Source: a virus
IMG/VR virus record: IMGVR_UViG_3300034198_007771
Span: 1 to 64,000 of that record
Strand: one strand, 5' to 3'
DNA: 64,000 nt
Part shown: piece after piece, positions 6,550-62,600 of the stretch
How the letters are laid out: every line of letters begins with the position of its first letter
How positions within the stretch are numbered: the first letter of the stretch is position 1
Notes under the pieces: model-generated
The model's input: the letters and a program-made list of their open reading frames with translations, nothing else
Database searches by the model: none
Told to the model about the DNA's origin: nothing
Program-made: the position numbers and the translations under genes

Positions 6550-9348
6550 CTACGGTAAGCCCAGTACGATAGGGCCTTTGTCGGTTTTCTTGTTCTGCTT
6601 GAAAATTCCGTCTAAGAATTTGCGGTCAGCGTCCCACATTGCCTGACCGGGGTCCAAGGCAGCAGGCCCGGGCGGTGGGGCGAGGAATGTGGGCTCGAAC
6701 CCCGCATAATATTCCATGCAGTTCCCCGCGACCATCGCCTTCAGATTCCTACGCACAATCAGAGTGGAGTTCGGTACTGTGGCACAATACACCTTCCCCT
6801 CGTATTGACTCGTAGTCACGATGGAATCCTTTGCTCCCGTTACCAAGGACGCTACGCCTTTCCGGAGTGTTGGCCAGTACTGGTCGCGAGACTGGCCTGT
6901 TCTACCTTCTATGCTCCAGTACTGGCACTTCTTCGTAAGGATGGTCGTGTGCCTTCCCAACCTGAAATACAACTCTTGGATGTCGGACGCCAGTGCAACA
7001 CTGGTCGTGGCACACCGATCGATACCCTGATTGACCCATCCGTCCCCGGCTAGGTACCCTTTCAAAAACGCGGTTATCACTTTCGCACTTGACGTTTTTA
7101 TCCACTGAGGGACAACCCGATTCCACGATCGGTCCCCTAGGTTCATGTCCTCCATCAAGTGCCATAGCTGCTTGCTCGAACAGATGTAGTTGTTCCCGTC
7201 TCTCAGGAAGTGCCAAGGTATCCTGTCCAACAGCGATACGAGTTTGATGACCCCTTCAGGCTTGACCTGGCTGATGCCGATGCGGTACCCAACGCCGGGC
7301 ATTCGTATAACCTTGTCACGGGAACCTTCTGCAACCCACCAACCCAGCAACTCTGCGTAGTCACAGGTGTCGATTGTTCGGGTGTAGTTCCTGCACTTCG
7401 GCGGGACCGGCAGGTCCATCGTGTCTGGCGACTCGACCGACCATGGGTTGTTCGGGCACAACTTCAACAAGTTCTGTTCGGGTACGTCCTCGGCGTTTAC
7501 GAAGTGCCATTTGTCACGGTTAAGCTGGCGGTACACCACCATACGATGGGTAGGTGTAACCGTACAGTCAACAGTCCGTGACTTGAACGTAATCATCGGG
7601 CCGCTGTAATCCTTCACGATCCAGCGTGACGGTGTCTGAAACTCCAGTTGGTCTTGCGAGTTTACCGTGGCGAGACGCTCGGTGTGGTCAAGGTCCGGCC
7701 ACAGTTTCCAGCCGCGGTCGGTAAGCACTTCCATCGAAGGGTGGAAGCAATCGAGCACGTCATGGGCCTGCCCTTTGGCGATCTTGTCCTGGATAGCGTC
7801 TCGTGAAACTTCCTTGAGCGTCTCTTCGAACTCTTTGACCAGTGCGGGGCACATGTGGGGGACGATACGGAGTCGTGGCCTACCGCAGTTCCGACCACGA
7901 AGGAGTGCTCTCAGCTTCAATGACCGTGTGATCCAAACGGTCTCACCGCGAAGGAATAGGTCTCCCGTGACTTGGCATCGCAAGCCATACGTTCGGAATG
8001 GCTTTGAGTATTCTTCAAACACTGTGTGTCCCGCCCCCATGCTCGTCTGGTTGCCCGCCTTCGAGTCGCCGATGAATCGAGCATATCGTCGGCCGGGGTC
8101 TGCAGCTACGACACGCTTCGCCATCTCTAAAGCGTTGAGCCGCGGCACAGCCATCTCGCGAAACACGATATGGTATGGTTCACCCTCGTCCCAAAACTCT
8201 TTTGGCGGTATCGCTACCCAAAGCATCGCCGGTCTCGTAGTACCTGGGTCGAGGATAAGATCGACGCACCAATCGCTCGGTACGTTCCAGTTCAGCTTCC
8301 GCATCGCCTCTGTGACCTTGTCGTTCAGCGGGCTGTTATCTCCGTAGTTGACAACGTGAAAGTTCTTGTCGAACTCTGGGTACGCCACGACAGAGCCGGT
8401 TGCAAACTCCCCGTAGTATCGAGCTTTGATTTCATCCTCGCTCCACCCCTCGAATCGCTTACGTCGTTCTTCATCATCCATGAACGGGTTCTTCATGGCG
8501 TTGAATACGAAGTTCTCCACGTCTTGGTGCGTGCGTACGCCACGGGACACTTCATCCCTTTGGTTGACCGCTCGCTTCCACATCTGCACGAGGGCCGCAC
8601 ATGTCATGTCTGGCCACGCTGTCCAGTACAACCGGCCCTTTCTGTCTGACAGTCGACTCTGCCATTCCGCCAAGTGACTGGAGTACTTGATATCCTCGTC
8701 CAGCCATATGAGATTTACGGGATCGCCCCTTTTCACGTCGCCACTGGACGCAAAGCCGTAGCACTTAGACCCGTCTTTCATCTCGATACTTGTGAACTCG
8801 TGAGCGGCTTTGTTCTGCCACACCTCAAGCGTTATCTCGGATGGCGGGATCAAAGGCGGTGCCGGAAACCTTTCGTCAACCGGAATTTTATCGTCGCCCT
8901 CGATACGGCCGGGTTGCCATGCCCGCCACAGACCGGTCTGCTTGTCACGTACCATGTCGAACGCACCCGGACGACACAGCAACCGGTATAGCGTCTGGCC
9001 GATATGAGCTAGGTTCATCCCGATCAGCCAAGCGGTTATCGGCCGCTTCTGCCAACCCGGTTCTCGCATGTCGTGCTTGGACCCGTCGGCAAAAGTAACT
9101 GGTTTGTTACGCAGGTACGAAGCTACCATCGCGGCAACAATTACGGACTTGCCCGATCGTGGAGCCCCTTGAACAAGTACCTCGGATGCCCTGCTAGTAA
9201 CAACTGCTTCCTGGTATATGGTCGGGCGGAAGATCTCCAGGGCGTCGAGCTTGGCCTTAGCCACCTTTGCCGCGGCGGCTACCCCTTGTTGGAGGTCCCG
9301 GCGAGACATGAGCGATTGACGGATCTTGTTCGCTAGTTCTTCTGACAT
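6550..9348 (-). CDS. terL: Terminase large subunit interrupted by an intein
   Basis: 932-aa precursor. Residues 61-68 (GAPRSGKS) are Walker A and 213-219 (LIWLDED) Walker B of the packaging ATPase. The nuclease domain shows LILDPGT (D367), FIGDSKAG (D428) and a third acidic motif split between AHDVLD (528-533) and CMEYYAG. Residues 534-876 are an intein, leaving about 589 aa after splicing, normal for TerL. The enzyme docks on the portal, pumps DNA and cuts concatemers. GGGAGGAG precedes ATG 9348. The start overlaps the 3' end of a GIY-YIG endonuclease gene by 16 nt. Confidence 0.93.
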   Translation of the reverse strand: MSEELANKIRQSLMSRRDLQQGVAAAAKVAKAKLDALEIFRPTIYQEAVVTSRASEVLVQGAPRSGKSVIVAAMVASYLRNKPVTFADGSKHDMREPGWQKRPITAWLIGMNLAHIGQTLYRLLCRPGAFDMVRDKQTGLWRAWQPGRIEGDDKIPVDERFPAPPLIPPSEITLEVWQNKAAHEFTSIEMKDGSKCYGFASSGDVKRGDPVNLIWLDEDIKYSSHLAEWQSRLSDRKGRLYWTAWPDMTCAALVQMWKRAVNQRDEVSRGVRTHQDVENFVFNAMKNPFMDDEERRKRFEGWSEDEIKARYYGEFATGSVVAYPEFDKNFHVVNYGDNSPLNDKVTEAMRKLNWNVPSDWCVDLILDPGTTRPAMLWVAIPPKEFWDEGEPYHIVFREMAVPRLNALEMAKRVVAADPGRRYARFIGDSKAGNQTSMGAGHTVFEEYSKPFRTYGLRCQVTGDLFLRGETVWITRSLKLRALLRGRNCGRPRLRIVPHMCPALVKEFEETLKEVSRDAIQDKIAKGQAHDVLDCFHPSMEVLTDRGWKLWPDLDHTERLATVNSQDQLEFQTPSRWIVKDYSGPMITFKSRTVDCTVTPTHRMVVYRQLNRDKWHFVNAEDVPEQNLLKLCPNNPWSVESPDTMDLPVPPKCRNYTRTIDTCDYAELLGWWVAEGSRDKVIRMPGVGYRIGISQVKPEGVIKLVSLLDRIPWHFLRDGNNYICSSKQLWHLMEDMNLGDRSWNRVVPQWIKTSSAKVITAFLKGYLAGDGWVNQGIDRCATTSVALASDIQELYFRLGRHTTILTKKCQYWSIEGRTGQSRDQYWPTLRKGVASLVTGAKDSIVTTSQYEGKVYCATVPNSTLIVRRNLKAMVAGNCMEYYAGFEPTFLAPPPGPAALDPGQAMWDADRKFLDGIFKQNKKTDKGPIVLGLP
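6721..7749 (-). mobile_element. Intein with LAGLIDADG-type homing endonuclease in terL
   Basis: 343 residues from Cys534 (CFHPSMEVLTDRGWK, splicing block A) to Asn876, followed by Cys877 as the +1 nucleophile. TPTHRM at 599-603 is block B with its conserved Thr and His. LLGWWVAEGS (667-676) and FLKGYLAGDGW (761-771) are the two dodecapeptide motifs of a LAGLIDADG endonuclease, with acidic residues present, so homing may be active. The end reads VYCATVP (block F) then MVAGN; the residue before Asn is Gly where many inteins have His, a variation I know from other phage inteins. The insertion lies between D533 and C877 of the nuclease motif. Confidence 0.92.
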
Positions 9349-10193: not shown

Positions 10194-11659
10194 AAAATAC
10201 CTCCGTACTGATTCTGCCGAGCCAAGGCGTTGTAGGCCGCACCGGCTGTGAGGGGCCTGAGAACGCCCGGTACAGCTTGTGGCCGCATCGGGTTCATCGT
10301 CGACACAAGCGGTGAGTCACCGGCTGATGCACGGAACGCTGGCTGCTCGACCTGTTGTACCAGCGTGGTTGGGTTGATCGGCACACGCTCGCCGTCGATG
10401 GCACGAATACGCATCTGGTCGATCAGGTCTTGGTCCCACAACACCCTATCGCCTGCGAAGCCTTTTATCGACGAAGGTGTCATGGCCCCTGGGTAGCCAG
10501 TAGCTTGTAAGTCTTCAATGCCTGCAAGCCTCGGGTCCACACCAAGCATCTGCTCGGCCGATCCTTGGGTTGTCCAGTCCGCAAGGGGCACGTTCGGCAT
10601 GTCTAGTTCGTACTGAACTGCATCTGGAAACCCCTGACGTTCGAGCAGACTCCGTACGTACTTCGGTGTACGTGGGTCGTCAGACACGTACATGGCTGGA
10701 CCATAGGTCTTACCGGTCTGCCCAGTGCCAACTTCATTCATGTCAAACATGCCGTACGGATGTTCTGGCGTAGCTGAAGCGGACCAGTCCCTGCCGACAT
10801 GCTGTACCCGTTCAAGTTCGGGAGTGTACCCAAGCAGTTTCGGACTTTGCTCAGCGACACTAGCCGTAGCCGGTGCAACCTCATCCGCCGTCGGACGGTA
10901 CACCCAGTTACTATCTACCTGCTCGTAACCCATGTGCTGCAGCTTCGCCGCAAAGTCCGGGCTGATCACTTCTTCCGCTACGATAGGCTTTCCGAACCCT
11001 CTGAGGTAGTTGTGCAGAGACCGATACGCACCACTGCCTGGCTGTCTCGCCTCAATACTCGCCACAGTTATCGCATCGTCGATCTTCTCTTTACCCAATT
11101 GTCGAGCACCGCGTCTCATGTAGAGACGATCGAACATGTCGTTCTCCGGTACATCGAACGACGTTCTGCCCCCGATGAGGTCCTCTGGTAACGGGCCGGA
11201 TAGTTTGGCGTCCAGCGTGGACCGTACCATGTCATCGAGGGGGTTCACCATCTCATCCGCCTGCCGTGCCAACACTCGCGGGTTGACGTAGCTGTACTTC
11301 CCGGCCTCGCGTAACGCATTCACAGCGTTGGCCTGTCGTGCTGCCTTACCACCTTTGATGGCACGCAGCACAGCCCCACCGCTGACGAAGTTCATCGGGT
11401 CCAGTGCTACCTCAGCACCGAAGCCAAGCACGTCCTTGACACCCTCCATCGGGTCGGACAGCCAGCCGGACATACCGGTCTCTTTGTTCGCACCGAGTAA
11501 TGGCCGTAACACGTCACGCCCGGACGCCCGGTTGTCGCCGGAGAACGGTGTCATCCACTGGTCGAACGGGTTCTGCCCCGTCAACAGGTCTCGTACAGAC
11601 GAGCCAGGCAGGTCGAGTAGGTTGCCAGCGTAGCCGAGGAGTTCAAGCGGGTTTACCAT
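10190..11659 (-). CDS. Putative virion protein sharing an N-terminal module with the 1573-aa protein
   Basis: 489 aa. Residues 14-88 (LLDLPGSSVRDLL, FDQWMTP, SGRD, ETGMSGWLSDP, GFGAE, LDP) closely match residues about 49-127 of the product of 51031-55752. The rest differs: a helical centre and a segment near residues 310-350 with YGPAMYVSDDP that faintly recalls ADP-ribosyltransferase-like folds, not enough to assign one. Lies between the putative small terminase and terL. ATG 11659 overlaps the upstream gene by 17 nt. A minor capsid or ejected protein is likely; this is inference. Confidence 0.7.
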   Translation of the reverse strand: MVNPLELLGYAGNLLDLPGSSVRDLLTGQNPFDQWMTPFSGDNRASGRDVLRPLLGANKETGMSGWLSDPMEGVKDVLGFGAEVALDPMNFVSGGAVLRAIKGGKAARQANAVNALREAGKYSYVNPRVLARQADEMVNPLDDMVRSTLDAKLSGPLPEDLIGGRTSFDVPENDMFDRLYMRRGARQLGKEKIDDAITVASIEARQPGSGAYRSLHNYLRGFGKPIVAEEVISPDFAAKLQHMGYEQVDSNWVYRPTADEVAPATASVAEQSPKLLGYTPELERVQHVGRDWSASATPEHPYGMFDMNEVGTGQTGKTYGPAMYVSDDPRTPKYVRSLLERQGFPDAVQYELDMPNVPLADWTTQGSAEQMLGVDPRLAGIEDLQATGYPGAMTPSSIKGFAGDRVLWDQDLIDQMRIRAIDGERVPINPTTLVQQVEQPAFRASAGDSPLVSTMNPMRPQAVPGVLRPLTAGAAYNALARQNQYGGIL

Positions 11660-15691: not shown

Positions 15692-15908
15692 GAAGCCTTA
15701 CATGACGCCGAAGGAGGTCGTCGCGGCTTTACTCAGGCAGGGCATCGAGGTTACGGATGACACCGTGCGTAACTGGACGACGCTGGGGCTGCAAAACAAG
15801 AAAAGCCCTGGGCTTCGTTATCGGCTCAGGGCTATCCGTATTGGCGGGCGTATCCACGTGGAACGGGCGGACCTTGTCAGGTGGGTTCCGCTGTTGAGGG
15901 AGTGTTGA
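15684..15908 (+). CDS. Helix-turn-helix DNA-binding protein (MerR/excisionase-like)
   Basis: 74 aa from ATG 15684, overlapping the preceding gene by 8 nt. YMTPKEVVAALLRQGIEVTDDTVRNWTTLGL is arranged like the winged helix-turn-helix of excisionase or MerR-type helix-17 proteins: a recognition helix then a wing (RYRLRAIRIGGRIHVERAD). Next to a recombinase operon, so a recombination directionality factor or a repressor is possible. Its end overlaps the convergent gene by 32 nt. Confidence 0.7.
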   Translation: MSEKPYMTPKEVVAALLRQGIEVTDDTVRNWTTLGLQNKKSPGLRYRLRAIRIGGRIHVERADLVRWVPLLREC

Positions 15909-16104
15909 AGTGGGCAATACGTTCCCCTAGGATATCCGCGTACGTGCTCATGACGGACAGTTGGATTCTCAACCTCGACTGCTCCCCGTTGTCCAGCTTC
16001 TGGAAACTGTAGCACCCGAGGTAGTTCAGCAGAGCTTTGATTTTTTCATCAAGGTCTCGTTTCTCCTGTACGACCCTCTGCTGGTACGGCGGTAGATCAA
16101 TCAC
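15877..16104 (-). CDS. crAss001_48-related small phage protein
   Basis: 75 aa from GTG 16104 with AGGAGG upstream; GTGA overlap with the recombinase stop. The pattern PPYQQRVVQEKRDLDEKI ... FQKL...EQSRLRIQ...M..YADILGERIAHF is one I recognise from many phage genomes, usually annotated as crAss001_48-related. All-helical; molecular role unknown. Confidence 0.75.
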   Translation of the reverse strand: MIDLPPYQQRVVQEKRDLDEKIKALLNYLGCYSFQKLDNGEQSRLRIQLSVMSTYADILGERIAHFNTPSTAEPT

Positions 16105-17648
16105 GTACTTACCCTCCTCGCGAGATCTGTCATGCCCTGTGGCACCGCACAATGCGATGCAATCGTTGTCAGGGTTGACTTGTCACGCAGCCTGCCGGGC
16201 AGTGTCTTAGCCACGGCAAGGAATGCCTCCATACGACGCATCGTACGCACGATGGTCAGAATATTCATCGGATAGATCACGTCATGCTTGAAGTTCTTCA
16301 GCATGATAATCAACCTGAATCGTCGCTCGCTGAACTCGTCTTCCTGCATCTTCTTCAGCTTGGCCGCGTACATCTTCGCTGGCATGCCGAACTCGCCTGT
16401 CACAGGTGGCAGGCCCTTCAGCTTGAGCCACTTGTTCGAGATGACTCGCACAGCCGTTCGCTGGTCGCGGTAGTTCTTGCCCGTCATGTACAACTCAAGG
16501 TACATGTGCATCCGCTCCTCCGCGTTGAAGATCGCATGGAAAGCGTAGTGCTTGAGCCCATTGCTTCCGGGCGGACGCAAGAACTTCGGCATGAACTCAG
16601 CCCGGGCCTTCGCACTGACAGCACACGCTTGCATCTTTCCATGCTTGGTTGACCGGCCGATCTCTGCCGACTCAAGCTCAGCAAACATAGTCATCATCTG
16701 AACTAGGGTCTTGCCGAACGGGGTGTCCGTCCTGAACCCACCTTCGATAGCCATGATCGCTGCACCGATGTCGTCAATCTGTCGCACGACCCGAGCAGAG
16801 TCGTGCAGCGATCGGAACATACGGTCTGGACGCAGCGTGACGATCAAGTCCCCCGGCTGCAGATCCGCCATCAGCCTCGACCCGGCTTTACGTTTGGCCA
16901 GTGGTGTGGTAAAGGCCGATGCCCCCTCGTCGCGATACCACACCACTGGCTTGCCAGAAAACTCTGGCGGCATCATTCGCTCGATTGCAGCGACCTGGTT
17001 CTCGACAGTCTGATCGTTCGTGCTGACTCGCACGTACGCCCGGATCGTCTTGATCGAGTCAAGCTGTTTCTGCTCTCGACCTGCAGCGACCTGGCGGATG
17101 ATCTCGGCCATGTCTTTCGTGCTGCACTCCATGACCGGCCGCGGAATCACAGGCCGGGGCTTCTCGTTAGATACCTTCGACTTACTGATCGTCTTGGCCT
17201 CTTTGATCCGGGCACCCATCAGCTCGCTCTTTAGCTGGGCCATGATGCCCAGCATGTAGAGCATGGCTTTGCCGTTGGCCGTGTTAGTGTTTAGAGCCGG
17301 GTAGTCTGTGAAGATCACAGAGATGCCATGCTCGACCCACGTCTCAAGCGTTGTGACGATGTCTTTCATGCGACGGAACAGTCGGTGTGTGGCTGTGGCC
17401 ACGACAGTGTCGCCGGGCTTGAGAGCCCCGAGCATAGCCGCCCCACCCGGTCTGTTGCTCAGCGTCTTCTTGTACGCTGACTTACCGCCGTCGATGAATA
17501 CACCCGGCAGGTCACAGTTCGTCTCGCGGCCAAGCGGTAGCTGGTACCGCTGGCAGTATTCAAGACAGGCTTTTACCTGGGCGTCGACGGAGTAACCTGT
17601 GACGTACTGGTCGAGTGTGGACACGCGGGCGTAGATGAAGGTGCTCAT
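16101..17648 (-). CDS. Serine recombinase with two tandem catalytic domains
   Basis: 515 aa from ATG 17648 (ATGA junction with the gene upstream). Domain 1, residues 2-155: FIYARVSTLDQ with Ser10, HRLFRRMKD with Arg89 and Arg92, AQLKSELMGARIKEA. Domain 2, residues 203-345: IRAYVRVSTNDQ with Ser209, PDRMFRSLHD with Arg276 and Arg279, FAELESAEIGRSTKHGK. Both keep the serine and arginines of the resolvase/invertase active site. The last 165 residues are basic and helical, with no zinc ribbon or standard large-recombinase domain that I can see. A single-chain pseudo-dimer for site-specific recombination is my inference. Confidence 0.85.
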   Translation of the reverse strand: MSTFIYARVSTLDQYVTGYSVDAQVKACLEYCQRYQLPLGRETNCDLPGVFIDGGKSAYKKTLSNRPGGAAMLGALKPGDTVVATATHRLFRRMKDIVTTLETWVEHGISVIFTDYPALNTNTANGKAMLYMLGIMAQLKSELMGARIKEAKTISKSKVSNEKPRPVIPRPVMECSTKDMAEIIRQVAAGREQKQLDSIKTIRAYVRVSTNDQTVENQVAAIERMMPPEFSGKPVVWYRDEGASAFTTPLAKRKAGSRLMADLQPGDLIVTLRPDRMFRSLHDSARVVRQIDDIGAAIMAIEGGFRTDTPFGKTLVQMMTMFAELESAEIGRSTKHGKMQACAVSAKARAEFMPKFLRPPGSNGLKHYAFHAIFNAEERMHMYLELYMTGKNYRDQRTAVRVISNKWLKLKGLPPVTGEFGMPAKMYAAKLKKMQEDEFSERRFRLIIMLKNFKHDVIYPMNILTIVRTMRRMEAFLAVAKTLPGRLRDKSTLTTIASHCAVPQGMTDLARRVST

Positions 17649-17839
17649 CGTTGTCTCGCTTCCAGCATGGCGTCGGCCATCTTGTAGCACATCCTGGCGT
17701 CGTCTTCGTAGTATGTGTCTCGGCCAATCCAGCTCATGCTGGCTAGTGCTTTAGCGGCGAAGTAGTCCCGGAGGGTCATACCCCGCTGCCCGTTTACGTC
17801 TGCATCGTTAGAAACTGGAAACGCTCGTTCTTCGTTCAT
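17645..17839 (-). CDS. Small conserved phage protein, 64 aa
   Basis: GMTLRDYFAAKALASMSW followed by YKMADAMLEARQ is a pattern common in small phage and prophage proteins of unknown function. Overlaps the recombinase start (ATGA) and the stop of the gene upstream (ATGA), so it belongs to the same message. Confidence 0.75.
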   Translation of the reverse strand: MNEERAFPVSNDADVNGQRGMTLRDYFAAKALASMSWIGRDTYYEDDARMCYKMADAMLEARQR

Positions 17840-18021
17840 CGTACCAAACTTTCACAAAGGGTTTGAAACATCCCAGGTGCTTTCAGGCCAGAGTCGCTAC
17901 GCACGACAAAGCCGATCAGGCTGCTGTCCTCGCACCACGTTACGTGCAGGCCGGGGCCAACGTCGTCCCAGACGAACTCGACGTTTGCTGGTTTATTGTA
18001 GACGAAGCAGAAGGTGACCAT
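17836..18021 (-). CDS. Small unknown protein, 61 aa
   Basis: Starts at ATG 18021, which shares its first base with the stop of the 36-aa gene upstream (TGATG); begins MVTFCFVYNKPANVEF. Ends in an ATGA junction. Beta-rich, one Cys near each end. No family recognised. Confidence 0.6.
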   Translation of the reverse strand: MVTFCFVYNKPANVEFVWDDVGPGLHVTWCEDSSLIGFVVRSDSGLKAPGMFQTLCESLVR

Positions 18022-18131
18022 CAGAACCACAACTCGTTGTAGCCGTACTCAGGTATCGGACCTATGCCAAAGCACGCAAGAGCGGCCTGCACCACAGGAC
18101 GGGTTTTGTTCCAGTACAGTAGTTGAATCAT
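18021..18131 (-). CDS. Tiny unknown protein, 36 aa
   Basis: MIQLLYWNKTRPVVQAALAC is the start of a 36-aa product. It begins at ATG 18131 in an ATGA junction and ends in a TGATG junction. The perfect coupling on both sides is the reason to accept it. Possibly amphipathic; function unknown. Confidence 0.55.
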   Translation of the reverse strand: MIQLLYWNKTRPVVQAALACFGIGPIPEYGYNELWF

Positions 18132-18322: not shown

Positions 18323-18517
18323 TCAGTCCTCCCAGCTAAGTCGGATACGTTTTGCTTCACACCGAAGTTCTACGGCCCGGCAGTGGTGGAACTTCGCGCT
18401 GTCGTACAGGCCCATCGTCCCGGCCAAGTCCTCCTTGTGCTCGTGCCACTCGGCTAGTGCGTCAAGAATGTCTGGCGTGTCCTCACACACGTCTTGTTCT
18501 ATGTCGGTCAGCTTCAT
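18323..18517 (-). CDS. Small acidic helical protein, 64 aa
   Basis: MKLTDIEQDVCEDTPDILDALAEWHEHK... with a second helix SAKFHHCRAVELRCEAKRI, resembling a two-helix hairpin common in small phage proteins. AGGAGAGG before ATG 18517. Overlaps the primase-helicase stop (ATGA), so it is translated from the same message. Confidence 0.65.
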   Translation of the reverse strand: MKLTDIEQDVCEDTPDILDALAEWHEHKEDLAGTMGLYDSAKFHHCRAVELRCEAKRIRLSWED

Positions 18518-20751
18518 TCTACCTCTCCTAAAAATTTGTACCGCTCGACTTTCTGTGTCTCGCTCGGCGGCAATTGTACGATATGGCCTTCCCGGAGGAA
18601 CAGGTCGACCTCCTGCCGAGCCTCGACTTTCTTCAGCCTGAGAATGGTGTAGTAGTCACGCAGCGTCCATTCCTCAGTCACACGCTCGACACGACGGCGA
18701 CGTTCCTTCAGGTAATCGTCCATCTTCTTCGTGACAGACTCCTCCCGCTTCAGCATGTCCCCACTGACCGATGCAAAGGCTGCCTCGACAATGTGGTCGA
18801 CGTACTTCTGCTTCTTCAGCCAGCCCCACTCCATCAGGTCGATCGAGCCCTGTAGAATGTGTGGCGGTATCCAGCCGTGCTGCTGAGTCGGTATGCTGTT
18901 TGCCATCCAGAACGCCGGGTCACAGGCACACCACAGCATGTTCAATCCCTGGGCGAACTTCAAAGCGATCTCTGCATGACGCACGACATCGGCCCGATGT
19001 GGGTGGTCCTCTGGCCATTGAGCCATAACGATCGGTGACTTCTTCGTCTCAGCGTACCCTTTCCACAAATGCCTTGCCTGATCGTCCAGCGTGAGCGTCA
19101 GAGGTAGCTCGACCTGACCGGTGGCACTAATCAACTGGGATAGACTCGGTGACCCGATCGTGGGCTTGATCTCACCCAGTCGTTGACAGATCTCATACCA
19201 CGTCTTCAGGAACTCGTTGTGAGCGGCGAGGGCCTCCTCGCTCTCGCGTCTGGGTACTTCACCGATAGGGTAAATGAACATTCGTTGGAGCAGTCCGTCC
19301 AGACAGTCGTTCATCGGCATCTGGTTTAGGTTGACCTGCTGGATCGCTGCACTCACCACGAGGTGTGGGTTCCGTACAACGGTTCTGCCTTTCTGCAGGA
19401 CCCGCACGACAGTGTCTCCTGAGAAACACTTGTGGTAGAGACTGTTGTCGCTCTGCCCTGTTGTGTTGTACTTGTTGAACATCTTGAAGAAGTCTTTGCC
19501 CTCGGTGAACTGAAGCAGGACTCCTCTTGGGTACTTGGCCAGCAGCGAGACCAACGCCTCGGGGCTGCTGTCCGTGGCCATAGCGTCGGAGTGGGAGGTC
19601 GGACCAAGCAAGACCTTCATGGTCTTGCTCTTCCCCGATCCGGAACCTCCCACTCCAAACGTGTATAGCTGCCCGCCGAGCGTGTCGTGGTTCACGCTCG
19701 CTCGTACTCGCACCGATTGTCCCATCTGGAACATCGCTGTCGTCAGGATCGTCATCAGCCACAGGTTACGTGGGTACCCTGCCAGCTTCGCCTGTTGACT
19801 CGCTTCCTCAATCAGCGGTGGGAAGATGTGACTTGGTATCTCCGGGCAGTCGCCCGTGGCTGCCACGTACTGGAGTTTGCCAACGGCCTCGTGGGCTGCC
19901 TCAGCCACGACCTGCATATCAACAGCAGCGATGAGTTCTCGCCCGTGGTTGACAGGCCGACGGAGGTTGTTGAACAGGTTCTTGACTTCGGTCTCACCAC
20001 GATCGGGGTCGGAGTACGTACCGACTCGCTGGGCCATGTATCGGCTAAGCTCGACGCAGTCCTCTGTCGGCAACTGCCAGTCGCAGTAGAGGCTCTTGCT
20101 CCATGCCAGCAGGAACTCGTGTCGGTTACCAACCTGCGGCAAGTACCCGTCTTCTTCGAGCCCTACCTCAACCTCTTTGGCGTCTTGTCCTTTGGGCCTG
20201 ACGTTCGCCAGGAACCACTGGATGATGACCTCCGGCATTGGCGCCGGGCCGACTTCCCAAGGGGCACAGCCGGGGAGCCATTCGTAATGTTCACCTGTGT
20301 CCGGGTGGAGCGATGGTGGGCAGATCGAGTAGAAGTCTTTGTCCGATGAAGCGAGGCGGCATTCAAGGCCCTTGGCTTTCGGGTTGTTCTTGTTGAGCGG
20401 GGCGAGGCGGTCTGTCCACTGGAAGATACGGTGGACACCACGGCGGGATTTGTAGGCAAGGGTCCGGCAGTTGGCCTCGGCCATGAGCCCTTCGATAACG
20501 GCTGTGCCCTCATCGGTGTCTGGCTCTACGTCGCAGATGCCCGATGTAGGGCCGAAGGTCATGGCTACGTTGAACGGGCCTGCAGGAACTTTCTTCACGA
20601 ACTCGTTGATGTCGTTCGTGGCGTTCTCTGTCCAGTAGCCCACTGGCTTCTTCGAGCCGTACTCGGCTACGAAGATCTTAATTCCGTGGCGGCACAGATA
20701 CGCCGCTGTCAGTACCGCGGCTTTGCGATACTGCTGCTCATCAAAGGACAT
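18514..20751 (-). CDS. Primase-polymerase / DUF3987 helicase-like replication protein
   Basis: 745 aa. Residues about 10-165 form a bifunctional primase-polymerase (Prim-Pol) domain: GICDVEPDTDEG supplies the acidic metal ligands and KSRRGVHRIF the conserved His. Residues about 300-640 match the DUF3987 P-loop region, with Walker A GVGGSGSGKS at 366-375. Such fusions start and unwind phage DNA. The stretch CFSGDTVVRV around residue 465 resembles an intein start but lacks the other blocks. GGAG upstream of ATG 20751, preceded by a CGGGGG/CCCCCG hairpin. Confidence 0.85.
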   Translation of the reverse strand: MSFDEQQYRKAAVLTAAYLCRHGIKIFVAEYGSKKPVGYWTENATNDINEFVKKVPAGPFNVAMTFGPTSGICDVEPDTDEGTAVIEGLMAEANCRTLAYKSRRGVHRIFQWTDRLAPLNKNNPKAKGLECRLASSDKDFYSICPPSLHPDTGEHYEWLPGCAPWEVGPAPMPEVIIQWFLANVRPKGQDAKEVEVGLEEDGYLPQVGNRHEFLLAWSKSLYCDWQLPTEDCVELSRYMAQRVGTYSDPDRGETEVKNLFNNLRRPVNHGRELIAAVDMQVVAEAAHEAVGKLQYVAATGDCPEIPSHIFPPLIEEASQQAKLAGYPRNLWLMTILTTAMFQMGQSVRVRASVNHDTLGGQLYTFGVGGSGSGKSKTMKVLLGPTSHSDAMATDSSPEALVSLLAKYPRGVLLQFTEGKDFFKMFNKYNTTGQSDNSLYHKCFSGDTVVRVLQKGRTVVRNPHLVVSAAIQQVNLNQMPMNDCLDGLLQRMFIYPIGEVPRRESEEALAAHNEFLKTWYEICQRLGEIKPTIGSPSLSQLISATGQVELPLTLTLDDQARHLWKGYAETKKSPIVMAQWPEDHPHRADVVRHAEIALKFAQGLNMLWCACDPAFWMANSIPTQQHGWIPPHILQGSIDLMEWGWLKKQKYVDHIVEAAFASVSGDMLKREESVTKKMDDYLKERRRRVERVTEEWTLRDYYTILRLKKVEARQEVDLFLREGHIVQLPPSETQKVERYKFLGEVE

Positions 20752-24966: not shown

Positions 24967-25578
24967 ATGGGCGATACAAGGTACCTGAAGTTCCTGTTCA
25001 GACTCTACTGGACAGTCGTGGCGTTGGCTCATGCCAACATCGTCTTCGGCCAGGAGGTCAGCCTTGATGGCGTGGCCAGACTCACCTGGACCGACGGGAA
25101 AGAGTCGGTCGAGTGGTCCGGAGTGGCCATCTCGGAAGACCGGGTTCTGACCTGTGAGCACCACGACAAGACTGGTGACGTACGGATCGAGTTCGCTGCT
25201 AAGGGCAAGGCCCGGGTCAGCGTTCCCGGCCGGATCATCAAGGTCAACGACTCGATGGACCTGTCTCTAATATCGTACGAGGCCCCTAGCTGGGCCTCAG
25301 TGCGTTTCTATGGGATAGACGACATTCCAGCCAACGGAGAGATCCGAGGCTATCTACGGGGCTCTGCGGTGGTCAGCCGGGCCGTCCGCGGCCGGGAAGG
25401 CATTACCTTCGGCGGCAGGCCGATGGTGGAGGTACTGGCGGTGACTGAGTCCGGCATGTCCGGCTCACCGCTGCTGATTGAAGGGAGTGTTTGCGGGATT
25501 CTGCTGGGTGGTGCGGATGACGGGGTAAGTCATTGCGTTAGCCCGGCGACGATCAGGGACTTTTTGAAGGGGGAGTGA
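24967..25578 (+). CDS. Trypsin-like serine protease with signal peptide
   Basis: 203 aa. Residues 5-29 (RYLKFLFRLYWTVVALAHAN) are a positively charged then hydrophobic signal sequence ending near FGQ. The fold is a chymotrypsin-like beta barrel: LTCEHHD with His65, DSMDLSLI with Asp98, ESGMSGSPLL with Ser165. Export to periplasm or surface is predicted. The 16 bases at its start (24955-24970) duplicate those at 15437-15452. Unusual in a phage early region. Confidence 0.85.
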   Translation: MGDTRYLKFLFRLYWTVVALAHANIVFGQEVSLDGVARLTWTDGKESVEWSGVAISEDRVLTCEHHDKTGDVRIEFAAKGKARVSVPGRIIKVNDSMDLSLISYEAPSWASVRFYGIDDIPANGEIRGYLRGSAVVSRAVRGREGITFGGRPMVEVLAVTESGMSGSPLLIEGSVCGILLGGADDGVSHCVSPATIRDFLKGE

Positions 25579-54000: not shown

Positions 54001-55752
54001 ATAGCCCCGCTTCTTCAGTACGTCCCCGATCTCCGGGGCTGCATACATGCGGATCGAAGCCGTACCTTTGCCCGCAAGGTCCCGTTCTATGAAGTGCAGA
54101 GCGTCGTCGAACGAACCGTCCGCGATAGCCGCTGGGTCTATGCTTGGTAGCAGATCTGCGGTATCGTTAGCCGTGACGACGTTGACTGTGCCCTTCTGGG
54201 TCATACCCTGCCCAACAACGTGATACAGCCCTTCCTGCGGAGCGTAGGCGAACGTGCCGGTCTTGCTGACAGGCTGTGCCAACCACATCTCCTCCCATAG
54301 TTGATCAGGCGTACGGTCGAACACCTGGGCGATATCATCGATGTGGCTCTTGCCAACATACCCCGGCAGGATCTTTAGACCGTTAACGTCAGGCACCGCG
54401 TCGGCATCAATACGGTCGATGATTGACTTCCACGTCGGGTTATTCAACAGTTCGTTGACAGCGGGCGTGCCTTCCTTGAACGCACGGTACACCATGTCTC
54501 GACCACCGCTCGTGTTAAGCGTACGGATGAGGCTCTGGTGATTGCTGCGTGCCCATGATGGCGTGTTGAGCCCGCCGATCTGTTCGAGCCTGCGAAGCTC
54601 GTCAGACTTGCGTCGGTGGAAGTAGTCGATGTACGGATCGACCATGTCGCTTTCACCAGCACCGAATGACTTCAGCTTCTGGTTCCACGAATCCTTCAGG
54701 GACCGCATCTGCTGAATCAAAGCGAGGTGTGGCTCTGGGATTGTCTCTCGCATCTGCTGGTACAGCGGCTCAAGCTGCATGTCGTCATACAGATTGTCAT
54801 CGCCGACCAGCTTGACCTTTGTTCCGTTTGGCGACCGGTCGATACGCTCGATCTGGTACGTCTTGTTGTTCATCGACACAACGTCGTTCGGCAGCAGACC
54901 ACCTTCATCTGGGTTGTAGATGCCCTCGAAGGCACGACGCTCGGCGTCCATGCGGGCACGTACCCGAACAGGCGAATCATCACGCATAATGTTCGTTGGG
55001 TCAGTCATGTCGAGGTCTGGGTTCTCGATCAAGTTAAACTTGTTGACACGGGCACTGTTGGCCAGTTCTGTGACGTGCAGATTCGCCGTCTCGCGGTATG
55101 CCTTCGCTGCGGTGCGTGCCTGCTCAGCCATAGGCATGACAAACGGGTCTGTGATACCAGCCGACGGGGCGTTGAACAGAGACTTCACGCCTCGCGTGGC
55201 CTTACCCGCTTGCTTCAGTATGTTTGAAGCGATGTTCTCAGGCAGCGTATCGAATGCGTACTTCGCGGCACCGCCCAACTTTCGCACTAGTGGGTGGGCA
55301 CGTCCAGCCGTGCTTGTCAGTGCCCGGCCTGCTGCGGTAGCACCCATGAATGACTTCGTTGCCGGGCCGAATGGGTCGAGAACCATCTCAGCACCGAAAC
55401 CTGCGAGGTCTCGTAGCCCTTCGCCGGGGTCGGACAGCCAGCCCATCATGCCGGTCTCACGGTTCTTCCGCATGCCGTACGCCTCAAGCAGATCACGCCC
55501 CGAGGTACGGTTCTTGCTGGACAGCGGTGTCATCCACTGGTCGAACGACCCGGCCAGACCTTTGCCAGCCAACAGGTCACGCACGGATGAACCCGGCAAG
55601 TCGAGGAAGTTCCCGACGGAAGCAACGGCCCCGAGACCAGCACCGCCGACGCTGGACAGCGTGTCCATCAGGTCGGTTGACTCAGGCTGGTTAAGAGATC
55701 GGGCCGCTGGAATTGCGGCTCGTGCGGATAGTAGTTCGGCTACGCTTGGCAT
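51031..55752 (-). CDS. Very large putative virion protein (1573 aa) with shared N-terminal module
   Basis: Start at ATG 55752 (TGATG junction with the 463-aa gene). Residues about 49-127 (FLDLPGSSVRDLL, FDQWMTP, ETGMMGWLSDP, GFGAE) match the 489-aa product of 10190-11659. The central and C-terminal parts are helical; residues around 1280-1360 contain KTFFPFYSFMRQTIPMYM, a segment I know from large phage internal or polyvalent virion proteins. No lysozyme or protease motif found. Probably an ejected internal protein. Confidence 0.75.
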   Translation of the reverse strand: MPSVAELLSARAAIPAARSLNQPESTDLMDTLSSVGGAGLGAVASVGNFLDLPGSSVRDLLAGKGLAGSFDQWMTPLSSKNRTSGRDLLEAYGMRKNRETGMMGWLSDPGEGLRDLAGFGAEMVLDPFGPATKSFMGATAAGRALTSTAGRAHPLVRKLGGAAKYAFDTLPENIASNILKQAGKATRGVKSLFNAPSAGITDPFVMPMAEQARTAAKAYRETANLHVTELANSARVNKFNLIENPDLDMTDPTNIMRDDSPVRVRARMDAERRAFEGIYNPDEGGLLPNDVVSMNNKTYQIERIDRSPNGTKVKLVGDDNLYDDMQLEPLYQQMRETIPEPHLALIQQMRSLKDSWNQKLKSFGAGESDMVDPYIDYFHRRKSDELRRLEQIGGLNTPSWARSNHQSLIRTLNTSGGRDMVYRAFKEGTPAVNELLNNPTWKSIIDRIDADAVPDVNGLKILPGYVGKSHIDDIAQVFDRTPDQLWEEMWLAQPVSKTGTFAYAPQEGLYHVVGQGMTQKGTVNVVTANDTADLLPSIDPAAIADGSFDDALHFIERDLAGKGTASIRMYAAPEIGDVLKKRGYVGTGGSGTETWTKKINAMQPGTDPKYSMPTHVTKEQFKTRLQEIIAAEQNDIATGAKQGYQPGRGWWKSWTELRPNADGSERVLNLDLSKTQLAKVDLPTLDALRQTGGFRNITDYDVARAALDSGKEVHLGWRPATKGRPAEFVMVTPTQRSKVVEQATKKLSTVDQMIDDNPLTAKEVIHDELHQGITRNYKDKVDQWMPTLDDRGNAVAVGQVADDVHAETVQGWHKTILDGNIQNRIDEGKNLTKPQRSLLRLSDESLEALLFPPAVREQIAGMRTKAGIAQDMTIGIEDRHRALAIETADHVEKRYSKLYESWAPKSGHDYLAKAGSKVAYFEALRDNLTNLRQGRDKFPDMFGTGVSPNNVQTTLDLKAKMGMSFEEALDAGFFSGAVNKNTFLENMRQHWIGQGFFKSVDDPKEIAKQIKEIMSLRAPADTWSQMKTLNEGVTMFDLPELDTPKKMMSSLMSLTKSGYLSYSPATAIRDGLSSAVNAVVMGDMSPLAYMKKAKSAWSFSNGAVPLDIPEGVAEIEQYLASRSIPSTPRSRGEAFQNFWNAHHMSGSIHPNVVTADAMRMAESDSPLSVLGNQPGNTSIKQEFLGGLQRTVQAPGVLGKAKEAILPAGTYVKDDLGRWVQKSTSGPIVAAMNGLRSKIDNLNRAVFVMDRLDKTKSLADAFEASDKFLLNADPQNFTRFEHQYMKTFFPFYSFMRQTIPMYMTELMANPGGKLGNLIRATRLGQGDEKGYVPYQYQDSAAIPLGKTDDGNIKYLTSFGLMHEDAVKYAGNALQMDLRGLMQQAAASSNPAMKWFIEHSTNTSLFSQGPMGGRRLDDLDPSIGRLLTNLGLQDAEASGRATPFGSPTLESLAAAGPASRLLSMAKIASDTRTGAGEKVLRLLSGVRIENVTPEQITRDLRDRLNAIQIASGARPLTIVSGSEKLVEHLKATGQPETAAVLERINKALAAQRRAVAAEDKPANSRTVVDMLRQAQ

Positions 55753-60952: not shown

Positions 60953-62600
60953 CTGTATTCCTCACACGAGCCGTCCGCACCCGCTCCATCCGGGATGATG
61001 CCCCGGCCTGCATAGCCCTCAAGTGTGCCACACGCTGAGCCCGGCTCGGGACACCGCGGTCGAACTCATAGTTGCGACTTGCAGATGTTCGGTTTACCGC
61101 GTGCCCGTGTTCGCCGCAGGTCAGAACGTGCTGCACTTGCAGGATAGCCCCGTCACACCGTAATGTCAACTTAGGTTTGTTGTATGCTACGAACTGGCTG
61201 GCTGACGTAACGAACATACCGGCTGCAGCTACTGCAGCGGCATCACCAATGTCATCCAGGGCGGACTGATTCGTAGTCGTACCGGTGACAACGTGAGACG
61301 TGTTATACTGCACGATCGTCGTGGCGTACTGCTCGTGTTTTATCTTGTGGTACCCAACTCCTGCTGCGTCCACGCTCACGTCGTACACGTAGTTGTTGTA
61401 CTGGTTCGTCGTGCTGTTTCGGACAGCAATGACACACTCAAGATAGAGTTCGGCTGGCTTGAAAACTGGCGTACCTGCTGTGTCGATCCAGTAGACCGGT
61501 TCCTCGAAAATGAGAACTCCGTTCTCACCGTCGAGATGGTACTGCCTGCCGACAACCGGATCACCGATGGCTGTTGTCTCGCTACCGGGCACGACCGGGT
61601 TGGCCAGTTCACGTTCGGACTTTCGGTACTTACCGTAGACGCGGTACGGAATATAGCTGTTGTCCGACCGCAGGTCCTCCGTCTCAAGCAGTCTTGACTG
61701 GAGCGGCAGGATGTCCTTCAGGCCGGACACAGTTCCCGAGCCGTCTGGCGGGTCCCACGTACCGTCAGCAAATCCCATGACGCGGTATGCAGAACGGACG
61801 TACGCCTTCGCTGCGGCAGCCTCGTCATCCGTCAGTGCGTCAGCAGCATCGCCGAGGGACACCGGTACCGTATTCTCCCACGTACCACTCGGTGCGAATG
61901 ACAGACTGTTGATCGGCTTCCACGATCCGTCTGTGTCGAGCCCTACCGCTTCCAGCTTCAGACGTACCTGAGCCAGTGACGTGGCGAAACAGTTTCGCAC
62001 GTACCGCGGGATGAGCTTCGGGTCGATGGTGTCCGAACCAACAAACCGATCCGTCGTTGAAAGGGTCGCTCCGGTGCCGAGCCGAACAATCGTAACAGCC
62101 TCGGAGCCAAACCCGAGAGCGACCGTGTATCCATACTCTGACAGCAATGCGTCGGCTGCCTCTACAATATCTTCGCATTGCCACGACACTGGTGGGTAGA
62201 TGTCTGTCGGCAAAGCTGACACGTCAGCCGTGGCTTCACCGAGAGCTACCATGAGCAGCGAGCCAAGCTGTCTCAACGTCTTCGTCCGTGTGACAACCCC
62301 AGCCCGAAGGATGTTGTACTCGCCAGAGATACCGGCGTTGTTCCGCCACAGTTCTCTGCGGTCCAGAACCTTCAGCAACATGTACCGCCCGTCGTCCGTC
62401 AGGCGTAGCGTACCGAGGTCAACAACGCAGTTCGGGAGCGTGATGGTCACACCGTCCCAGTACATCGAGATTGTGCCGGACGTAGCGATGCTTGCAGACT
62501 GGGGATTGAACCGCAGCATCGCTACGTCCGGAGTCCAGCCCACGCTCTGCGTGTACGTCAATTCGACCGGGCTGGAGATGCTGCTGAACGACCAGGTCAT
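60945..62600 (-). CDS. Putative distal tail / baseplate protein, 551 aa
   Basis: Beta-rich with repeated strands (TISMYWDGVTITLPN), and an Ala-rich helical part near residues 440-470. The C-terminus is basic (RVAHLRAMQAGASSRMERVR). Position between the 254-aa tail protein and the GS-rich protein suggests a hub or tip protein. No diagnostic motif. Confidence 0.55.
   Translation of the reverse strand: MTWSFSSISSPVELTYTQSVGWTPDVAMLRFNPQSASIATSGTISMYWDGVTITLPNCVVDLGTLRLTDDGRYMLLKVLDRRELWRNNAGISGEYNILRAGVVTRTKTLRQLGSLLMVALGEATADVSALPTDIYPPVSWQCEDIVEAADALLSEYGYTVALGFGSEAVTIVRLGTGATLSTTDRFVGSDTIDPKLIPRYVRNCFATSLAQVRLKLEAVGLDTDGSWKPINSLSFAPSGTWENTVPVSLGDAADALTDDEAAAAKAYVRSAYRVMGFADGTWDPPDGSGTVSGLKDILPLQSRLLETEDLRSDNSYIPYRVYGKYRKSERELANPVVPGSETTAIGDPVVGRQYHLDGENGVLIFEEPVYWIDTAGTPVFKPAELYLECVIAVRNSTTNQYNNYVYDVSVDAAGVGYHKIKHEQYATTIVQYNTSHVVTGTTTNQSALDDIGDAAAVAAAGMFVTSASQFVAYNKPKLTLRCDGAILQVQHVLTCGEHGHAVNRTSASRNYEFDRGVPSRAQRVAHLRAMQAGASSRMERVRTARVRNTDD

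Follow-up and report, generated by a model that had tools for sequence, protein, structure and literature searches.

A phage serine recombinase with two diverged catalytic domains in a single chain

Can a single polypeptide carry two serine-recombinase catalytic domains, and how would such a protein recombine DNA? To our knowledge, all well-studied serine recombinases act as four one-domain subunits, with strand exchange by rotation of one pair against the other. The question was raised by a gene within positions 1 to 64,000 of the IMG/VR virus record IMGVR_UViG_3300034198_007771 (the window, 64,000 nucleotides), for which a reading made from the letters alone (the sequence-only reading) had claimed two full catalytic domains in one protein, a C-terminus without a recognised domain, and a single-chain pseudo-dimer. 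A covalent tie between two non-identical catalytic domains, if natural, would break the four-subunit symmetry, allow each position of the synapse to be mutated separately, test whether free rotation is needed, and give genome engineering a basis for recombinases whose subunit order is fixed.

The presence of two PF00239 catalytic domains in a single 515-aa open reading frame was confirmed and is far beyond chance. The family matched two stretches of the uninterrupted chain (E 1.3e-54, 184.7 bits for the whole protein), and the separate matches, at 17193-17639 (E 1.5e-28) and 16626-17039 (E 1.8e-28), each scored ~95 bits, above the curated cut-off of 23.3. The first catalytic domain starts at residue 3, with no N-terminal MerR-like HTH of the kind found in IS607-type serine transposases, and a long, variable linker of ~45 residues separates the two domains. 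The features of the locus are listed in Table 1.

Table 1 Features of the tandem recombinase locus in the window.
Feature	Position	Strand	Basis
Small convergent winged-helix gene, 68 aa	15702..15908	+	Conserved at the corresponding position in each lineage tested
Tandem serine recombinase gene, 515 aa + stop	16101..17648	-	Intact ORF; PF00239 twice; conserved in eight lineages
C-terminal basic helical domain, residues 345-515, candidate DNA-binding	16104..16616	-	Helical; net charge +17
Second catalytic domain, residues ~200-344, long helix E 310-344	16617..17051	-	PF00239; 2rsl match
Pro/Lys-rich variable linker, residues ~155-199, predicted short helix 180-191	17052..17186	-	Low conservation; pLDDT mostly <50
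N-terminal catalytic domain, residues ~1-154, long helix E 124-154	17187..17648	-	PF00239; AF2; 3bvp match
Small ORF between primase and recombinase	17836..18030	-	Same position in lineages B, C and D, 37-69% identity
Prim-Pol/DUF3987 primase-helicase gene, upstream conserved neighbour	18514..20751	-	Pfam PF09250, PF13148; synteny

The same two-domain architecture was found in eight lineages comprising 19 contigs from IMG/VR, with full-length identities of 38-53%. Relatives recovered with protein and capsid probes were 50-53% identical to the window protein, and an outgroup recovered by a capsid-profile scan was 38-39% identical. PF00239 was detected in 19 of the 24 virus records checked, and all 19 carried both copies in a single open frame. 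The five records without it (those behind L058, L071, L085, L088 and L094) are represented by contigs that extend little or not at all beyond the capsid gene on its upstream side, as judged by the start of the capsid match; on L085, the first conserved gene seen was the convergent small gene. An artefact joining two genes by assembly, frameshift or read-through, the first two of which the sequence-only reading had named as grounds for refutation, did not occur: in 19 independent contigs from many samples the two domains share a single open frame at the same position, which rules out a frameshift or assembly join and leaves the artefact reading vanishingly improbable. Terminal repeats were present in the window's own record (87 bp) and in two relatives (967 and 127 bp), and a third relative had a near-terminal repeat of 181 bp; these four records could be circular in the cell. 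Because of these repeats, we place the recombinase gene in seemingly complete phage genomes (64.8-68.0 kb) and not in host flanks.

Sequences from the eight lineages were aligned, and residue counts and the AF2 model were based on ten tandem sequences; the lineages are related by descent, so a count of 10/10 does not represent ten independent events. AF2 gave a pLDDT of 39 without an alignment and a mean pLDDT of 68 with the ten-sequence tandem alignment, with the catalytic domains mostly at 70-90, the linker disordered and long E helices in both halves. In VIA-align comparisons of this model, the N half matched the catalytic domain of TP901-1 integrase (3bvp) with Z 17.3 and rmsd 2.1 over 133 residues. 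For the C half the match was gamma-delta resolvase (2rsl; Z 16.0, rmsd 2.2, 114 residues), to which it was also matched by profile (1zr2; E 2.7e-13). Each half is thus predicted to have the serine-recombinase catalytic fold with a long helix E, and the outcome that would have refuted the sequence-only reading, one half without a resolvase fold, did not occur when tested with AF2 and VIA-align. Since its pTM was 0.36, the model speaks for the fold of each half and not for the mutual arrangement of the domains. Among viral proteins, Foldseek returned a 328-aa resolvase of Pithovirus LCPAC104 (352 alignment columns).

The active-site residues, numbered by their Tn3/gamma-delta equivalents, are retained in both halves. 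Y6, R8, S10, Q14, Q19, D36, R45, R68 and R71 are invariant in all ten N and all ten C halves, so that the nucleophile Ser10 and Arg8, Arg45, Arg68 and Arg71 are present in 20/20 half-domains. R8 and R68 touch the scissile phosphate, and R71 has been proposed to do so (PMC4499144). The claim that both halves are full domains with catalytic Ser and Arg therefore stands for the core residues and needs correction at position 67, where the N half is not fully canonical because His88 (in ATHRLFR) replaces the usual Asp. Asp occupies this position in all ten C halves (Asp275 in the window protein); the N halves have His (8/10) or Thr (2/10). The acid is not strictly required, because Ser is found there in five of 21 single-catalytic-domain enzymes, the other 16 having Asp. 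Purifying selection is strong on both catalytic domains: within lineage B, dN/dS ranged from 0.02 to 0.03 in the N domain and from 0.03 to 0.05 in the C domain, both below the linker in every pair. The linker had the highest value of the protein in most pairs, and the N domain the lowest in two of the three lineage-B pairs.

Helix E provides contacts within the dimer and, once the tetramer is active, within the rotating pair (PMC4058570). In the tandem protein its usual charges are divided between N and C. At position 118, Glu is found in 21/21 single-domain enzymes and in all C halves, and Lys or Arg in all N halves. Conversely, position 125 is Arg in 21/21 single-domain enzymes and in all N halves, and Ser, Leu, Ala or Met in the C halves. 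Position 124, Glu in 17/21 single-domain enzymes, is Ala or Ser in N and Arg in C; position 119, Arg in 17/21, is Ser in both. Pairing of N with C would be expected to leave such a division of charges, and the complementary helix-E surfaces suggest that the two halves of the protein pair with each other. The halves are consistently non-equivalent, both at position 67 and along helix E, and for this reason a pseudo-heterodimer is a better description than a plain pseudo-dimer. The single-chain pseudo-dimer idea thus survived the tests in a refined form, with dimerisation itself something that we infer. The stronger version is an obligate single-chain pseudo-heterodimer in which the helix-E interfaces are complementary and cannot be interchanged and the active-site acids differ. 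Two such chains would assemble into a synaptic tetramer whose subunit order is built in and whose rotation is limited; we consider the case for this version evenly balanced.

Two other readings of the paired domains were weighed against this one. The halves might not pair within the chain at all, with like halves homodimerising across chains and the fusion representing two recombinases of different site preference, comparable to CcrA plus CcrB. The long and variable linker is compatible with such an arrangement, as is the distance in sequence between N and C, each of which resembles a different kind of single enzyme, and two-recombinase systems are established in the form of separate genes (CcrAB). 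It is nevertheless improbable, given that helix-E charges are lost in a complementary fashion, as heterotypic pairing would predict, and that a single C-terminal domain serves both halves. Alternatively, the C catalytic domain alone might cut DNA, with the N domain a catalytically reduced partner, regulatory or structural, through which the assembly of dimers or tetramers is controlled. Lower catalytic activity of the N half is another possible meaning of its position-67 and helix-E changes: His or Thr takes the place of Asp67 in the N half in all lineages, with Asp in 10/10 C halves, E118 and E124 of helix E are altered as well, and no DNA-binding domain lies directly behind this half. Yet the nucleophile and the full set of core Arg and Gln residues are present in the N half of every lineage, its dN/dS is the lowest in most of the lineage-B pairs, and single-domain relatives with Ser at position 67 do without the acid, so that we regard an N domain that only regulates or supports as rather unlikely.

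The C-terminal 165-170 residues matched no Pfam, NCBIfam or PHROG family and no HTH or DNA-binding family by sequence, consistent with the sequence-only reading. The region (residues 345-515) has a net charge of +17 and is helical in the AF2 model (pLDDT ~67-84 over residues 370-460). PF07508 and zinc-ribbon matches were absent from all ten members, and the C-terminus of the window protein has no CxxC pairs. The ISNKWLKLKGLPP motif hinted at a large-integrase recombinase domain, which was rejected with profile comparison probabilities of at most 3.3%, and falcilysin matches (E 0.013) were judged to be chance. Foldseek and VIA-align found nothing convincing for this region, assessed as part of the large full-length model only. 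Its basic, helical character makes the C-terminus a candidate DNA-binding domain.

In all lineages covering the locus, the gene order was the same: primase-helicase, recombinase, convergent winged-helix gene, scaffold-like gene and capsid. The winged-helix gene was present in 12/12 of the records first checked and in the outgroup. Its product gave a weak match to an excisionase PHROG (E 0.0014; excisionase matches overall had E 0.001-0.04) and weak matches to HTH_17, HTH_33 and DUF1580, and it is a candidate recombination directionality factor or regulator. A hairpin lies inside this gene in the window (15795-15842) and in L013 (9916-9949), L002 (7643-7676) and L063 (2629-2658); in the window, read on the recombinase strand, it is followed by a T-rich tract. 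The terminator of the recombinase operon may therefore lie inside the antisense coding sequence of the winged-helix gene. In the outgroup, an inverted repeat with 13-bp arms and paired changes was seen just upstream of the recombinase start (L089 2162-2193, L090 5996-6027), for which we offer the reading of a terminator or operator. A small ORF with a match to crAss001_48 (15877-16152, minus strand; PF21825, E 9.8e-17) overlaps the end of the recombinase gene; no counterpart was detected in the related loci under comparison.

Three further observations were made elsewhere in the window. A probable terminase ORF (6550-9348, minus strand) has a LAGLIDADG domain in a long insert, which is therefore probably an intein. 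DNA repeats at 11451-11568 and 55427-55547 suggest that the N-termini of a 489-aa and a 1574-aa protein are related. A trypsin-like serine protease gene (24967-25578, plus strand; PF13365, E 2.7e-06) is also carried by the phage.

In the tree of catalytic domains, the N domains formed one clade and the C domains another, with nearly matching branching. From this near-identity of branching it follows that the fusion is older than the phage group and was inherited as a unit; the tandem architecture is ancient and has been kept vertically within the group. The N and C clades were sisters (94/86) with one long branch left out, and an alternative tree that placed N with Oscillatoria plasmid enzymes was not rejected (p-AU 0.21). 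Internal duplication is accordingly favoured but not shown as the origin, the alternative being a fusion between integrase and resolvase domains. Outside the group, no tandem homologue with at least 80% of the window protein covered in one place was found in 50,697 phage or 72,556 plasmid records, nor did the outgroup protein have one by the same criterion among the phage records. A full-length profile found no homologue in bacterial genome contigs, in which a domain scan detected five ordinary single-domain enzymes, and a sample of ~790 genomes from two phyla gave no tandem match at 1e-25, in a search that had no positive control. Nothing relevant on two-domain serine recombinases was found in the open-access literature, which does not show that none exist.

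No att, res or inversion sites were identified, candidates of a length suitable for inversion being absent, and no conserved att-like site was seen in the window or its relatives. The gene contains a single strong inverted repeat (16897-16950), which was considered as an att site and rejected because relatives lack it. It is one of two unusually long perfect inverted repeats in coding sequence, the other at 62476-62531, with arms of 15 and 17 bp and 54-56 bp overall; the longest in five shuffles was 12. No integrated copy of the phage was found, and no host; the DUF1580-like matches of the winged-helix protein allow no more than a guess at Planctomycetota.

Taken as a whole, the protein is probably a phage site-specific serine recombinase with two diverged catalytic domains, a flexible linker of ~45 residues and a shared C-terminal DNA-binding domain, working by a pseudo-heterodimer mechanism. 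We infer that the N and C domains of one chain would pair through helix E and that the four active sites of a synaptic tetramer would come from two chains, both sites of each chain being active. DNA would be cut and rejoined through the Ser-phosphodiester chemistry and subunit rotation typical of serine recombinases. Were the linked halves the rotating pair, the long linker would tolerate rotation; were they the cutting pair, it would limit rotation to ~180 degrees. The basic C-terminus would bind DNA, and the small winged-helix protein would set direction or act as a repressor. The likely task would be phage integration and excision, or multimer handling of the phage genome. A rival view of the task, which leaves the architecture untouched, is that the protein acts on the phage genome as a Tn3-like resolvase or Hin-like invertase instead of an integrase. 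The C half most closely resembles resolvases and invertases, the gene lies beside replication genes and not in a recognisable lysogeny module, and the four repeat-bearing records could be circular in the cell. We hold it to be a somewhat unlikely account, in that no long inverted or direct repeat pair flanks a segment within the window and the conserved excisionase-like neighbour suits integration and excision better.

Compared with known systems, the protein shares its catalytic fold with the large serine integrases (TP901-1, Bxb1, phiC31 and BL3), of which TP901-1 is structurally closest to the N half; the best phage matches of this half are mostly annotated as integrases, and here too the gene is phage-borne, with a small neighbour that is possibly a directionality factor. 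It differs from them in having two catalytic domains, no Recombinase (PF07508) or zinc-ribbon domain and no place in a recognisable lysogeny module. With the resolvases and invertases (gamma-delta, Tn3, Gin and Hin) it has in common the core active-site residues and the match of its C half to gamma-delta resolvase. In classic members of that group, however, a single catalytic domain is accompanied by a small HTH, whereas the tandem protein has two catalytic domains, followed by a ~170-residue C-terminus without a recognised HTH, and its helix E is altered at positions 118, 119, 124 and 125. IS607-type serine transposases differ in placing their MerR-like HTH before a single catalytic domain.

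CcrA and CcrB of SCCmec, a two-recombinase system encoded by separate genes, likewise use two different serine-recombinase catalytic domains for one element, and both halves of the tandem protein gave weak Ccr profile matches; in contrast, each Ccr protein is a large serine recombinase in its own right, with a single catalytic domain. In single-chain LAGLIDADG homing endonucleases, a homodimeric DNA cutter became a single-chain pseudo-dimer by duplication or fusion. Their fold and chemistry are unrelated to those of the tandem recombinase, to which they provide an analogy only.
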